Source: Deltaproteobacteria bacterium
GTDB taxonomy: Bacteria > Desulfobacterota > Dissulfuribacteria > Dissulfuribacterales > QOAL01
NCBI GenBank assembly: GCA_027067775.1
Contig: JAMOVK010000106.1
Span: forward strand, 1 to 32,230
Direction of reading: 5' to 3'
DNA: 32,230 nucleotides
Shown here piece by piece: positions 4,097 through 8,341 of the stretch; position 1 is the first letter of the stretch, and each line of letters starts with the position of its first letter. Position numbers and translations under genes: made by a program. The notes below the pieces were generated by a model, which ran no database searches, had not been told where the DNA came from, and saw only the letters and a list, made by a program, of their open reading frames with translations.

Positions 4097-5224
4097 ATGA
4101 AACAGTTACTTCAAGATGTACCAGAATATATCAAAAGTCTCGTGCCCTACCCTCCTGGAAAACCAAAAGATGAACTGGAAAGAGAATATGGCATCAAGGA
4201 TTCGATAAAACTTGCCTCTAATGAAAACGATCTTGGACCATCCCCGAGTGCTGTTGAAAAGATAAAGGGAATTTTAAAAGAATTACACAGGTATCCTGAT
4301 GGCAGCAGTTATTATCTTAAGAAGGAACTTGCCAACAGGTACGATGTCCGCCCATCCAATCTTGTCCTTGGAAATGGATCCAACGAACTCATAGACTTTC
4401 TATGCAGAATATTTATTAGAGAAGGCAGAAATGCCATCAGCAGCAGACCCAGCTTTCTAGTTTACAGTAAAATGGTCCAGATTACAGGTGGTAAAAACAG
4501 GGTGATCCCGTTAAAGAATGCAACCCATGATCTGGCTGCCATTGCTGATGCAGTAGACGATAAGACCCGTCTGATTTTTCTTGATAATCCCAACAATCCT
4601 ATGGGGACTGTAATTTCTTATGGTGATCTCGAGCACTTTCTTTCATGTTTGCCTAATCATCTAATTGTGGTATTAGATGAGGCCTATGGAGAATTTGTCA
4701 AACCGGGTACGGATTGGGCTGAAGGAATCTCGTTTTTTAGAAAATACAAAAATATCGTGATTTTGAGAACCTTTTCAAAGGCCTATGGTCTTGCAGGGCT
4801 CAGGATCGGCTATGGTATCATGGATGATGCAATTGCCGCACTTTGTGACCGGGTCAGACAACCTTTTAATGTTAATCTTCCTGCTCAAGAAGGGGCACTT
4901 GCTGCCCTAAAAGATGACCGGCATCTGCGCTTGACTCTTGAAAATACGTGGGAACAAATGATAGAGCTTTCAAATAAAATTCGGGAACTTGGATGCATTC
5001 CCTTTGAAAGCAACACGAACTTCATGCTTGTTGATACCCATAGACAGGCCAAGGTCCTTTTTGAGGCAATGTTGAAAAAGGGAATAATAATCAGGTCTAT
5101 GGACTCTTATGGATTTCCCACATATATCAGGGTCACTATTGGAACACCGGAAGAAAACCAACGGTTTATCAAGGCCTTTTCTGAGGTAATTAAGGAAATA
5201 CCAAAAAATAAAGGGAGGGATTAA
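4097..5224 (+). CDS. hisC: Histidinol-phosphate aminotransferase
   Basis: A 375-residue PLP-dependent class I/II aminotransferase that converts imidazole-acetol phosphate to histidinol phosphate. Family features are LASNEN near residue 40, the GNGSNELID loop, LDNPNNPMG at about 163-170, LDEAYGEF around 193-200, and the PLP Schiff-base lysine Lys228 in RTFSKAYGLAGLRIGY. It stands away from other his genes, next to rng and DUF134. HisC paralogues also act on aromatic substrates, so exact specificity is not proven. The stop overlaps the DUF134 start by one base (TAATG), which implies coupled translation. Confidence 0.93.
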   Translation: MKQLLQDVPEYIKSLVPYPPGKPKDELEREYGIKDSIKLASNENDLGPSPSAVEKIKGILKELHRYPDGSSYYLKKELANRYDVRPSNLVLGNGSNELIDFLCRIFIREGRNAISSRPSFLVYSKMVQITGGKNRVIPLKNATHDLAAIADAVDDKTRLIFLDNPNNPMGTVISYGDLEHFLSCLPNHLIVVLDEAYGEFVKPGTDWAEGISFFRKYKNIVILRTFSKAYGLAGLRIGYGIMDDAIAALCDRVRQPFNVNLPAQEGALAALKDDRHLRLTLENTWEQMIELSNKIRELGCIPFESNTNFMLVDTHRQAKVLFEAMLKKGIIIRSMDSYGFPTYIRVTIGTPEENQRFIKAFSEVIKEIPKNKGRD

Positions 5225-5541
5225 TGGCTCGTCCACCAAAATGCAGACTTGTTGGAAGGAAACCGTCTGTTACGTACTTCAAGCCTAGAGGCATTCCTCT
5301 TAGAGACCTTGAGGAGGTCACTTTGACAGTGGAAGGACTCGAGGCACTGAGATTAAGTGAAATAGAAGGGCTTGACCAGGATTCTGCAGCAGAAAGGATG
5401 GGAATATCAAGGCAGACATTTGGACGTATTCTGGCTCAGGCGAGAAAAACTGTCGCACGGGCAGTGGTTGAAGGACTAGGGCTTAGAATAGAAGGCGGTA
5501 ACTATAAACTGGTATCTCATCATCCCCAAGATACGATCTGA
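5224..5541 (+). CDS. DUF134 (UPF0251) HTH protein
   Basis: A 105-residue DUF134-family protein with a strong AAAGGGAGGG ribosome site. It begins with the family motif MARPPKCR and a KPRGIPL turn. A sigma-like helix-turn-helix follows: LTVEGLEALRLSEIEGLDQDSAAERMGISRQTFGRILAQAR, shown here only as the span of residues 37-77. The family is widespread in anaerobes and is presumed to be a DNA-binding regulator; its target is unknown. It overlaps hisC and the macro gene by one base at each end, so the three are translationally coupled. Confidence 0.88.
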   Translation: MARPPKCRLVGRKPSVTYFKPRGIPLRDLEEVTLTVEGLEALRLSEIEGLDQDSAAERMGISRQTFGRILAQARKTVARAVVEGLGLRIEGGNYKLVSHHPQDTI

Positions 5542-5975
5542 TGGAAACGATTTCTTGCTATGGAAACACAAGGATTGTAATAAAAACCGGCGATATAACC
5601 AAGGAAAAAGTGGAAGCAATAGTCAATGCTGCCAACAGTCGCCTTCTTGGTGGTGGTGGTGGGACGGTTGGTCCTGTCTGGCAAGGCGGAGTCAAAAACG
5701 AAGACAAGATACTCGAACGATCTTTTTTAAACAGCCTTCAGCGCGCACTTGAAAAGAGAGTCAAGACCATAGCCTTTCCTGCTGTCAGTACAGGTGCCTA
5801 TGGATTTCCTGTAGATCAAGCAGCACGAATAAGTGTATGCGCTATAAAGAAATTTCTCAACACACATCCTGACTCATTTCAAGAGATTAGGATGGTACTT
5901 TTTGGTGAAAACATATACAAACACTTTGAAAAGGCTATAAAGAATTGCTTTCAGAACCTATCCTCTATTTCTTGA
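5541..5975 (+). CDS. Macro-domain protein with deleted catalytic loop
   Basis: A 144-residue protein that is clearly a macro domain (ADP-ribose binding/deacetylation, YmdB/MacroD-like). Conserved parts are GDITKEKVEAIVNAANSRLLGGGG, then TVGPVWQGG, FPAVSTGAYGFP and a normal C-terminus. The segment that usually joins GGGG to TVGPVW is missing. It starts with VDGAIH, carries the catalytic Asp, and is about 46 residues long relative to YmdB. The frame is intact across the join, which falls in a run of GGT codons near 5650-5665. The fold core strand and helix that are lost make deacetylase activity unlikely. This is either a real in-frame deletion in a decaying gene or an assembly collapse. It overlaps the DUF134 gene by one base. 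Confidence 0.85.
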   Translation: METISCYGNTRIVIKTGDITKEKVEAIVNAANSRLLGGGGGTVGPVWQGGVKNEDKILERSFLNSLQRALEKRVKTIAFPAVSTGAYGFPVDQAARISVCAIKKFLNTHPDSFQEIRMVLFGENIYKHFEKAIKNCFQNLSSIS

Positions 5976-5994
5976 TTATTAATCATTAATAATC
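5974..5994. repeat. Perfect 21-bp AT-rich palindrome
   Basis: GATTATTAAT and its exact reverse complement are separated by a single C and overlap the macro-gene stop. There is no T-run, so it is not a classic intrinsic terminator. It could be an operator for the downstream promoter or a weak transcript-end hairpin. Confidence 0.6.
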
Positions 5995-6094
5995 GTCCTA
6001 TATTTTCCTGTATTTTATTATTTAAGCTTTGGTAACCTAATGCTCAATTTGTGAATTAATTATTTTTAAATAATTTTAAAAAAAATAATTTATC

Positions 6095-6123
6095 TTGACT
6101 TAAATTTGGGCCATGCTTAAATA
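6095..6123 (+). promoter_or_regulatory. Sigma-70 promoter of the LTxxQ triplet
   Basis: TTGACT, a 17-base spacer, then TAAATA lie 45 bases before the first start codon. A very AT-rich stretch directly upstream (6059-6091) could act as an UP element. This suggests strong transcription of the three secreted-protein genes, separate from the upstream operon. Confidence 0.6.
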
Positions 6124-6140
6124 ATTTAATAAAGAGAGAA

Positions 6141-6156
6141 TTTCCGTTACGGGAAA
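6141..6156 (+). promoter_or_regulatory. Leader hairpin next to the ribosome site
   Basis: TTTCCG and CGGGAAA form a short imperfect hairpin directly before the AAAGGAGG ribosome site of the GTG at 6168. Its place between promoter and Shine-Dalgarno suggests transcript protection or translation control; this is inference. Confidence 0.35.
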
Positions 6157-6167
6157 AGGAGGACAAC

Positions 6168-6644
6168 GTGAAAAAGATAGCCTTGATTACAACCTTTTCG
6201 TTATTAATTGTTTGGTCAGTCTGTGTCATTAAAGTAGCAGCCCAGGAAGAAGTAAATGATGTGTGTTTCAAAGCAGAATGTTGGAAAGAAGAAGGCCTTA
6301 CAAGGCTTGCATCAACTGGCTGTCCCACACCTACCCTTTTTATAAAAACTGCACTGCGTGAACTCAGTTCTTACGTAAAAGCAGCCGATGCCCTTGGCCT
6401 GACTGATACGCAAAAAGCCCAAGTACAAAAGATTTACGAACATGCCAACATGTTGGTAATTAAGGCCCAGGGCCAGTTACAGAGTATCACCAAGCTCTTA
6501 GCCAGGGAGATGGTTAAGGATGTACCAAACAAACAGAAAATCAAGGGGTTTGTAGACGAAATAGAAGACGTTTGCTGGAATACAATCTCCGCTCTGGCAA
6601 AGGATATACACGAAGCACGTGCTTTAATCAATAAGAAGAAATAA
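6168..6644 (+). CDS. Secreted LTxxQ (Spy/CpxP-like) protein, paralogue 1
   Basis: A 158-residue exported protein of unknown function. A signal peptide spans residues 1 to about 25 (KK, a hydrophobic core, then VAA). The mature part is helical with one LTxxQ motif (LTDTQ, 78-82), as in the Spy/CpxP/ZraP periplasmic chaperone and metal-stress group. Cysteines are at 33, 38 (in CW), 52 (in GCPTP) and 136. The last three line up with the two downstream paralogues. It stops before the position of the second LTxxQ seen in them. The start is a GTG with an excellent AAAGGAGG site. A periplasmic envelope-stress or metal/redox role is inferred from the family and the cysteines. Confidence 0.75.
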   Translation: MKKIALITTFSLLIVWSVCVIKVAAQEEVNDVCFKAECWKEEGLTRLASTGCPTPTLFIKTALRELSSYVKAADALGLTDTQKAQVQKIYEHANMLVIKAQGQLQSITKLLAREMVKDVPNKQKIKGFVDEIEDVCWNTISALAKDIHEARALINKKK

Positions 6645-6679
6645 AACAAAAATTTAGAATGATAACAAAGGAGAGGGCC

Positions 6680-7195
6680 ATGATACGTTCACTAATGATT
6701 GCTTTTTCGGTTGCTACAACAATTGTAATAGGTGGAGCATTTGTCAATGCATCACCAATACCGCAGAAGAAGGTGAAATGTCTTGCAGGAATGTGCTGGC
6801 GCAATCTTGACATGAAAAAGATAGAAGAACAGGGTTGCCCCGCCCCTATGATCATCATTAACAATATCTTGCGTGAAATGAACGGATATCTGGCAGCAGA
6901 CAAGTTTTTAAATCTGACACCAGAACAAAAGAAAGAGCTAAGGATGCTCAGGCATCGTTGCCACAGAAAGATTATCAAAGGCAAGTCGCTCTTAAATCTA
7001 CTATCCATAAACCTCTTGGATAATATGGCAACCGACAAATTCGAATTGTCTGAGGTCGAAGATCTGGTCTCCCAGCTTAGAAAGGCATGCTCCCAACTGG
7101 TCTTTGGTGTTATTCAAGACGCCATTGATGCCAGGATGATACTAACTCCTGAGCAGCGGAAAAAGGCAAGGGATTTTGTTGGGCCTACCCAATAA
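6680..7195 (+). CDS. Secreted LTxxQ (Spy/CpxP-like) protein, paralogue 2
   Basis: A 171-residue exported protein with two LTPEQ motifs (79-83 and 155-159), the hallmark arrangement of the Spy/CpxP family. The signal peptide (residues 1 to about 24, ending VNA) is followed by Cys34, Cys39 (CW), Cys53 (GCPAP), Cys94 and Cys137. The CW-to-GCP spacing (14) and GCP-to-distal-Cys spacing (84) are identical to paralogue 1. The ATG at 6680 is chosen over 6659 because AAGGAGAGG lies just before it. It starts 35 bases after paralogue 1 and overlaps paralogue 3. Function is unknown; a periplasmic chaperone or metal-sensing role is the family-based guess. Confidence 0.78.
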   Translation: MIRSLMIAFSVATTIVIGGAFVNASPIPQKKVKCLAGMCWRNLDMKKIEEQGCPAPMIIINNILREMNGYLAADKFLNLTPEQKKELRMLRHRCHRKIIKGKSLLNLLSINLLDNMATDKFELSEVEDLVSQLRKACSQLVFGVIQDAIDARMILTPEQRKKARDFVGPTQ

Positions 7196-7760
7196 CAACA
7201 ATTTTTTAATAGCAGGCAGCCTCGTAGTAATTGCGTTGTTTGTTACATGGAGTTCAGGAAACTCCTGGGCAGAACAGCAGGATTTTAAAAATATAGCAGA
7301 AAAAAGCCTTATACATCTATGTTGGCATGACTATTCTGTATCAAAAATAAAAAACTGTTCTGCCCTTGACCTGCTTTCTAAATCGTCGATTTGCGAAATC
7401 GAGGCCATACGTAGTTTTTCCTCTGAATTAAAGCTCAACCCGGATCAACAGAAGGCCATATCAAAAATATACAGAAAATATAGACGTAATCTAAGCTATT
7501 ATAAATCAAAAATGGGGCTCATTATTTCGGATTTGAGCGATAACATCTCAAATGAAAAGTTTGATATAAACTCTGTTACAACAGAGATATCAGAATTAAA
7601 AGATTTCTGTTCAAAGCTCCAACTGCTTGCCCTAACCACTGTAATATCCTTTAGGCAAATCCTTACCAGGGAACAAAGACAGAAGCTGCGAACTATTCCA
7701 TTTCCGGAAAAATATATAAAAAAGAATCAGCAAATCTTAATAGTTCCGTGTGGAGAATAA
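7176..7760 (+). CDS. Secreted LTxxQ (Spy/CpxP-like) protein, paralogue 3
   Basis: A 194-residue exported protein, the most diverged of the tandem three. An Asn-rich N-terminus leads into a signal peptide ending near SWA (residue 32). The two family motifs are LNPDQ (87-91) and LTREQ (163-167), 76 residues apart exactly as in paralogue 2. Cysteines are at 49 (CW), 61, 73, 145 and 192; the 61-to-145 distance is again 84. The start is a TTG 20 bases inside the preceding gene, with a purine-rich AAGGCAAGGGA just before it, which implies coupling. It has an extra 20-residue tail ending PCGE. The start codon is the least certain part. Confidence 0.72.
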   Translation: MLGLPNNNNFLIAGSLVVIALFVTWSSGNSWAEQQDFKNIAEKSLIHLCWHDYSVSKIKNCSALDLLSKSSICEIEAIRSFSSELKLNPDQQKAISKIYRKYRRNLSYYKSKMGLIISDLSDNISNEKFDINSVTTEISELKDFCSKLQLLALTTVISFRQILTREQRQKLRTIPFPEKYIKKNQQILIVPCGE

Positions 7761-7789
7761 AAAAGCCGACTATTAGATTAATCGGCTTT
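7759..7789 (-). terminator. Terminator of the slyD transcript
   Basis: An 8-bp stem (AAAGCCGA at 7762-7769 with TCGGCTTT at 7782-7789) on the minus strand is followed by six T's. It is in the 65-base convergent gap and partly overlaps the stop of the LTxxQ paralogue 3. It may also slow plus-strand transcription, although no T-run follows on that strand. Confidence 0.75.
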
Positions 7790-7825
7790 GTCTAACTCGC
7801 ATTTTTTGTTTGACAGCGATCTGTT

Positions 7826-8341
7826 TTATCCACAACCTCCGCATGTACCGCAACCACCCTGAGGATCGGTGTCGCAGCCACATGCTCCTGCCAAATTTGA
7901 CATTTCAGCAAAGGAAGGTTCCCTAACATCCAGGATTTCTATATCAAAATGAAGCGTTTCGCCTGCCAAGGGATGATTAAAATCTGCCTTTACTACCTCA
8001 TCGGTAACCTCCTTGACTGTAAATCGTACAGGGCCATGGGGAGATTGGGCCTCAAAGGGCATCCCTGGCTTAATCTCCATGCCCTCAGGAAAGTTGGACC
8101 TCGGGATTTCACGAATAAGGTCGTCTCTGGCTTCTCCATATGCATCCTCTGGTTTTATGGTCAGAGAGACAGAATCCCCTGCCTTTTTTCCTTTTATTCC
8201 GTCTTCAAGCCCCTTTATCACCTGACCGGAACCGAAAACAAAACCAAATGGCTCGTCGGGCGTTGTCTGGTCTATTGTCTCACCAGAATCGAGCTTGAGA
8301 GTGTAGTTAATTGTTACATAAGTCTTGTCATTAATTTCCAT
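7826..8341 (-). CDS. slyD: SlyD-like FKBP peptidyl-prolyl isomerase
   Basis: A 171-residue FKBP-type prolyl isomerase/chaperone of the SlyD group. Residues 1-70 give the split FKBP domain (VTINYTLKLDSGETID, GSGQVIKGLEDGIKGKKAGD, PEDAYGE). The insert-in-flap chaperone domain lies between about 73 and 125, and FKBP resumes with GETLHFDIEILDVR. Where E. coli SlyD has a His/Cys/Asp-rich nickel tail, this protein ends in a Gly/Cys tail with Cys154, 156, 164, 167 and 170. That is a probable soft-metal site. The start has a clear AGGAG, and a good promoter lies upstream. A nickel-handling role would suit the larB/larE genes further along, but that is inference. Confidence 0.9.
   Translation of the reverse strand: MEINDKTYVTINYTLKLDSGETIDQTTPDEPFGFVFGSGQVIKGLEDGIKGKKAGDSVSLTIKPEDAYGEARDDLIREIPRSNFPEGMEIKPGMPFEAQSPHGPVRFTVKEVTDEVVKADFNHPLAGETLHFDIEILDVREPSFAEMSNLAGACGCDTDPQGGCGTCGGCG

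Follow-up and report, generated by a model that had tools for sequence, protein, structure and literature searches.

Introduction

The Spy-type proteins described so far are single proteins, poor in cysteine, that serve as chaperones or metal sensors, and the related CnrX is part of a sigma-factor regulatory system. In the literature searched, no title or abstract was found to describe a trio of LTxxQ proteins built on a cysteine frame. Such a trio, encoded by three consecutive genes (p1, p2 and p3, Table 1), is present in the window, which is here the whole stretch of 32,230 nucleotides that was analysed. Among natural bacterial proteins, the p2 model aligns best with CnrX/NccX of the Spy-like Metal_resist family (Foldseek probability up to 1.00, Z about 9), but the trio differs from CnrX by its invariant cysteines and by the lack of a sigma or anti-sigma partner, no gene of this kind neighbouring any trio locus. 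With the LTXXQ proteins Spy and CpxP it shares secretion, a predicted helical hairpin and two LTxxQ motifs 76 residues apart, whereas p2 scores below the family cut-off, three tandem paralogues replace one gene, and the CX4CW motif, the second cysteine (Cys2) and especially the distal one (Cys3) are not features of the family. ZraP is also a helical hairpin and its entry 3lay is among the matches of the p1 and p2 models; the single relatives of the trio in genomes G014 and G015 adjoin a ZraS/ZraR-like kinase/regulator pair, whereas the trio has neither such a pair nor the Met/His-rich arm carried by its single relatives.

Results

The N-termini of p1, p2 and p3 are signal-peptide-like by inspection. 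When the 2.4 Mb genome was searched with p2, p3 (5.6e-16) and p1 (9.1e-14) were retrieved, without any further match at that level. The pairwise identities are 16-25%, in agreement with the first-pass annotation, which had described three consecutive signal-peptide homologues of low identity. The same annotation placed the LTxxQ motifs 76 residues apart in p2 and p3 and ended p1 before the second motif. The spacing was confirmed and p1 of the window does stop short of the second LTxxQ, which is present in p1 of G305, but the first motif of p3 is LNPDQ, so that LTxxQ is followed there only loosely. The 76-residue spacing was rejected as a special feature because it is identical in nine homologues from other loci and genomes, which suggests that it represents the length of the helical hairpin of the family; two cysteines fixed on a hairpin of set length would then give exactly 84 residues between Cys2 and Cys3. 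The significance that had been attached to both exact distances was therefore abandoned, since they only reflect a fixed hairpin length.

Table 1. Features of the trio locus, in window coordinates; motif and cysteine positions are residue numbers.
Feature	Position	Strand	Description	Cysteines
Possible sigma-70 promoter	6095..6122	+	TTGACT-16-TTAAAT; weak in the window, not reported by a stricter scan
Shine-Dalgarno before p1	6156..6163	+	AAGGAGGA, read from the sequence
p1	6168..6644	+	158 aa, GTG start, Sec signal peptide; one LTxxQ (78); last helix absent	19 (signal peptide), 33, 38 (W), 52, 136; CX4CW = C33/C38, GCPTP = C52, distal C136
p2	6680..7195	+	171 aa, signal peptide; LTxxQ at 79 and 155	34, 39 (W), 53, 94, 137; CX4CW = C34/C39, GCPAP = C53, distal C137
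p3	7176..7760	+	194 aa, TTG start, signal peptide; motifs at 87 and 163	49 (W), 61, 73, 145, 192; extra C73, distal C145, terminal PCG = C192
Hairpin between p3 and the convergent FKBP gene	7762..7789	.	terminator score on the minus strand
Presence/absence polymorphism	5976..7825	.	five congeners have the macro-domain and FKBP genes with no trio between them

At a place similar to that of the possible promoter, TTGACA with a good partner hexamer is found upstream of the trio in G007, G001 and G305. A conserved regulatory box 5' of p1 was ruled out: only sigma-70-like hexamers were detected, and those of the window are not significant.

The affiliation of the three proteins was analysed with Pfam profiles. 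The first-pass annotation had proposed a Spy/CpxP-type family and the LTXXQ profile (PF07813) as its check; p2 (22.4 bits) comes near the cut-off of 24.3 bits and p3 reaches 21.7 bits, all scores remaining under it. The Metal_resist profile (PF13801, cut-off 29.2 bits) is barely reached by p3 with 29.4 bits, p2 obtaining 19.9 bits only and p1 none, and it is matched at E 0.01 or better by 9 of the 18 trio proteins. Nothing above noise was obtained for p1 against Pfam. However, a profile made from p1 matches the Metal_resist-type protein of G014/G015 at 3e-14, and p1 is placed in the family because of its paralogues and relatives. The proposed affiliation thus failed at the LTXXQ cut-off and was retained on the near score of p2, the Metal_resist match of p3 and the predicted hairpin.

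The AlphaFold2 model of p2 (pLDDT 82.6, above 90 over most of the hairpin) contains helices at residues 55-72, 81-116, 123-154 and 157-165, and the same hairpin is predicted for p1; the N-terminal cysteine arm is poorly defined in the models (pLDDT about 45-64). The best natural bacterial matches of the p2 model include CnrX/NccX, CpxP, ZraP and Spy with Z values of 7.5-9.6, a range in which unrelated helical proteins score up to 9.3. For p1, ZraP (8.5) and CnrX (8.1) are exceeded by unrelated proteins (up to 10.2), and the identification of the p1 fold from structure alone was dropped since the comparison does not discriminate. The fold of the trio is predicted to be a Spy/CnrX-type helical hairpin.

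As had been noticed in the first reading of the sequence, the CW pair, the second and the distal cysteine are kept in all three proteins, with 84 residues from Cys2 to Cys3 in each; the distance from CW to Cys2 is 14 residues in p1 and p2 and 12 in p3. Free variation of these cysteines was looked for in the homologous trios, and the three were found invariant in all 18 proteins from six genomes. Such conservation at three columns is far beyond chance; the initial Met aside, the sole other residues kept as strictly are a Glu and a Gln. A fourth invariant cysteine, located five residues before that of CW and giving the CX4CW motif, is present in p1 and p2 (12/12) and absent from p3 (0/6). In turn, p3 has in all six genomes a cysteine on helix 1 as well as a (P/S)CG at its C-terminus. 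The CX4CW motif of p1 and p2, C73 and the terminal PCG of p3, as well as the start of p3 within the 3' end of p2, are details that the first-pass annotation had not mentioned.

The same columns were examined in 37 other family members of the phylum. A cysteine occupies the Cys2 column in 8 of them and the Cys3 column in none, Arg or Lys being found at the latter in 20 of the 37. Among the family members examined, the distal cysteine is the sole cysteine of the frame that is unique to the trio. These counts are only partly compatible with the earlier statement that Spy/CpxP proteins usually lack such cysteines, which is too broad for Cys2 and holds for the distal position. The Met/His-rich arm of the relatives is absent from the trio, in which Met and His are few. 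A Met-rich single homologue combining CX4CW with GCGCG was observed in G025 (L093, about 4239-4637, minus strand) and is possibly an intermediate between the Met-rich relatives and the trio.

The phylum was sampled through 395 genomes, and the search was extended beyond it by one pattern-based genome scan, which returned four trio genomes, all already in the set. The triplet, sought in other genomes of the phylum as had been suggested, was found in the same order in five more besides that of the window: two of the eight congeners (G001 and G007), two genomes of the sister genus (G011 and G013) and G305, which belongs to another class. Those trio genomes that carry a name were assembled from metagenomes and are labelled 'Deltaproteobacteria' or Thermodesulfobacteriota. 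A maximum-likelihood tree places p1 (support 97/91) and p3 (98/96) each in a single clade across both lineages, and p2 nearly so, the p2 of G305 branching just outside. The paralogues group by position and not by genome, suggesting that the triplication is older than the split of the lineages or that the block was transferred whole.

In the genus of the window, the trio sits between a macro-domain gene and a gene for an FKBP-type isomerase. The same chromosomal site was found without the trio in G002 to G006, and in G008, also devoid of the trio, the contig ends before the site. Since five congeners have this site without the trio, the trio behaves like a discrete cassette of accessory genes. 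No match to it was found among plasmid records, and carriage by a plasmid was rejected. A DUF134 gene located upstream, with a weak Sigma70_r4_2 match, stays in the congeners without the trio. The macro-domain protein of the window (5541-5975) has 144 aa instead of the 180 aa of its congeners, about 36 residues being absent in frame; the gap removes the GGGVDGAIHRAAG... segment, where ADP-ribose binding is expected, and may be genuine or stem from faulty assembly. The convergent FKBP-type isomerase (7826-8341), found in all nine genomes of the genus, is SlyD-like and ends with a Cys/Gly-rich tail, ACGCDTDPQGGCGTCGGCG.

The genes surrounding the trio differ between the window's genus, the sister genus and G305, and shared gene neighbours were consequently discarded as a guide to what the trio does. 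The trio loci examined have no metal, kinase or sigma-factor gene as a common neighbour. In both sister-genus genomes, a sensor histidine kinase gene is convergent to the trio (L021:6814-8274 and L022:6996-8555). In the same family of bacteria, a single Met-rich Metal_resist protein with two cysteines is encoded near a kinase/NtrC-type regulator pair (L024:5130-5684 and L023:274-825); that of L024 adjoins a heavy-metal P-type ATPase, in a ZraP-like arrangement.

Discussion

The trio is real, conserved and specific, but it belongs to a fold family already known, of which it is a variant. Its strongest unexpected points are the distal cysteine, unique to the trio, and the conservation of three paralogues as a block over two classes. 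It was probably kept as a set of disulfide-locked periplasmic chaperones or of thiol metal binders, and our tentative preference goes to the former: the proteins may be periplasmic hairpin chaperones or buffers with oxidised cysteines and with helix 1 stapled to helix 3. The stable three-gene cassette would supply secreted hairpins of the Spy/CpxP/CnrX fold acting outside the inner membrane, each mature protein being composed of a short cysteine-bearing arm at the N-terminus (CW in p3, extended to CX4CW in p1 and p2), of Cys2 before helix 1 and of the long hairpin. In the periplasm, the VKOR-type oxidase encoded in the genome would oxidise the cysteines. A bond between Cys2, where helix 1 begins, and Cys3, on the side of helix 3 that faces inward, would then hold both helix 1 and the arm to the hairpin, CX4C would close a small loop in p1 and p2, and the surface cysteine on helix 1 of p3 and its terminal PCG would be candidate inter-subunit links. 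The locked hairpin could then serve envelope proteins constitutively, as a holdase or as a cation buffer, and the three paralogues may split the work or assemble together. We infer the disulfide pairing, the chaperone or buffer activity and the subunit assembly alike. The metal or redox response and the mixed oligomers put forward in the first-pass annotation are hypothetical, and no metal or redox gene is kept as a neighbour across the trio loci.

Several observations are compatible with this disulfide lock. Cys3 lies 17 degrees off the hydrophobic direction of helix 3 and thus points inward. According to the register of the hairpin, Cys2 and Cys3 would both be level with residues 100-102 of helix 2 and face this helix, making a bond between them geometrically plausible. 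In p1 and p2 the number of invariant cysteines is even, and the four fit two disulfides in each protein, whereas p3, with an odd number of five, would have one left over to connect with a partner; the additional cysteine on helix 1 of p3 points away from the hydrophobic face (173 degrees). The genome encodes a VKOR with CSYC and a thioredoxin-like CPHC segment; DsbB was dropped as disulfide donor, no credible match in the bacterial family having been obtained and VKOR having been found instead. Against the lock stand the odd number of cysteines in p3, the low pLDDT of the arm, the presence of VKOR also in genomes without the trio and the fact that Spy-type chaperones need no disulfides, as well as the single relative of G025, whose CX4CW lies within a Met-rich, probably metal-binding arm. 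A bolder version, in which p1, p2 and p3 are obligate partners and the exposed cysteines of p3 build a mixed, thiol-controlled cage whose chaperone activity is switched by thiol state or metal load, seems unlikely, and to our knowledge no such three-component device exists in the Spy/CpxP/CnrX family.

The CX4CW of the same-order relative G025, joined there to a Met-rich arm, suggests a possible origin of the motif in a metal site, and we consider thiolate metal binding nearly as likely as the disulfide lock. The cysteines would form a site for a soft metal (Cu(I), Zn or similar) and the trio would sequester periplasmic metal as a cysteine version of its Met/His-rich relatives. The single relatives are indeed Met-rich with cysteines in GCP or SCP, one of them adjoins a kinase/NtrC-type pair as well as a P-type metal ATPase that carries heavy-metal-binding domains, p3 matches Metal_resist in Pfam, and CnrX/NccX are the best solved relatives. 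However, no metal transporter or sensor is conserved beside the trio at its loci, Met and His are scarce in the proteins, and C73 of p3 faces off the core according to the helix register, so that one four-cysteine site common to all three is unlikely.

Roles in signalling or in sulfur chemistry are less likely since no partner gene is conserved. Adaptors of the CpxP/CnrX kind, which would monitor the envelope and signal its state to a kinase or an anti-sigma factor, are suggested by the structural likeness to both proteins and by the convergent histidine kinase gene in G011 and G013, the only loci where a kinase adjoins the trio. We find this improbable: kinase, sigma and anti-sigma genes are absent next to the trio in the three loci of the window's genus, no kinase is adjacent in G305, where the nearest signalling gene codes for a diguanylate cyclase one gene away, and three paralogues in one unit are unlike the known adaptors. 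The invariant thiols and the tail cysteine of p3 could also react with sulfide, polysulfide or oxidants, the redox state of these sensors or carriers switching their binding. The class of the window is probably that of the sulfur-disproportionating Dissulfurimicrobium, D. hydrothermale being an obligate sulfur disproportionator (PMC8780430). There is little chance that such thiol chemistry accounts for the trio, which Dissulfurimicrobium itself lacks, having a Met-rich single homologue only, and redox or sulfur genes are not conserved as neighbours of the trio.

With its invariant sites, its presence or absence at the same site in close relatives and a single-gene form in the same order, the trio offers a clean test set. 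Being ancient, conserved in gene order and invariant in its cysteine frame, such a trio would show that the Spy fold can be rebuilt around thiols and split among three subunits.
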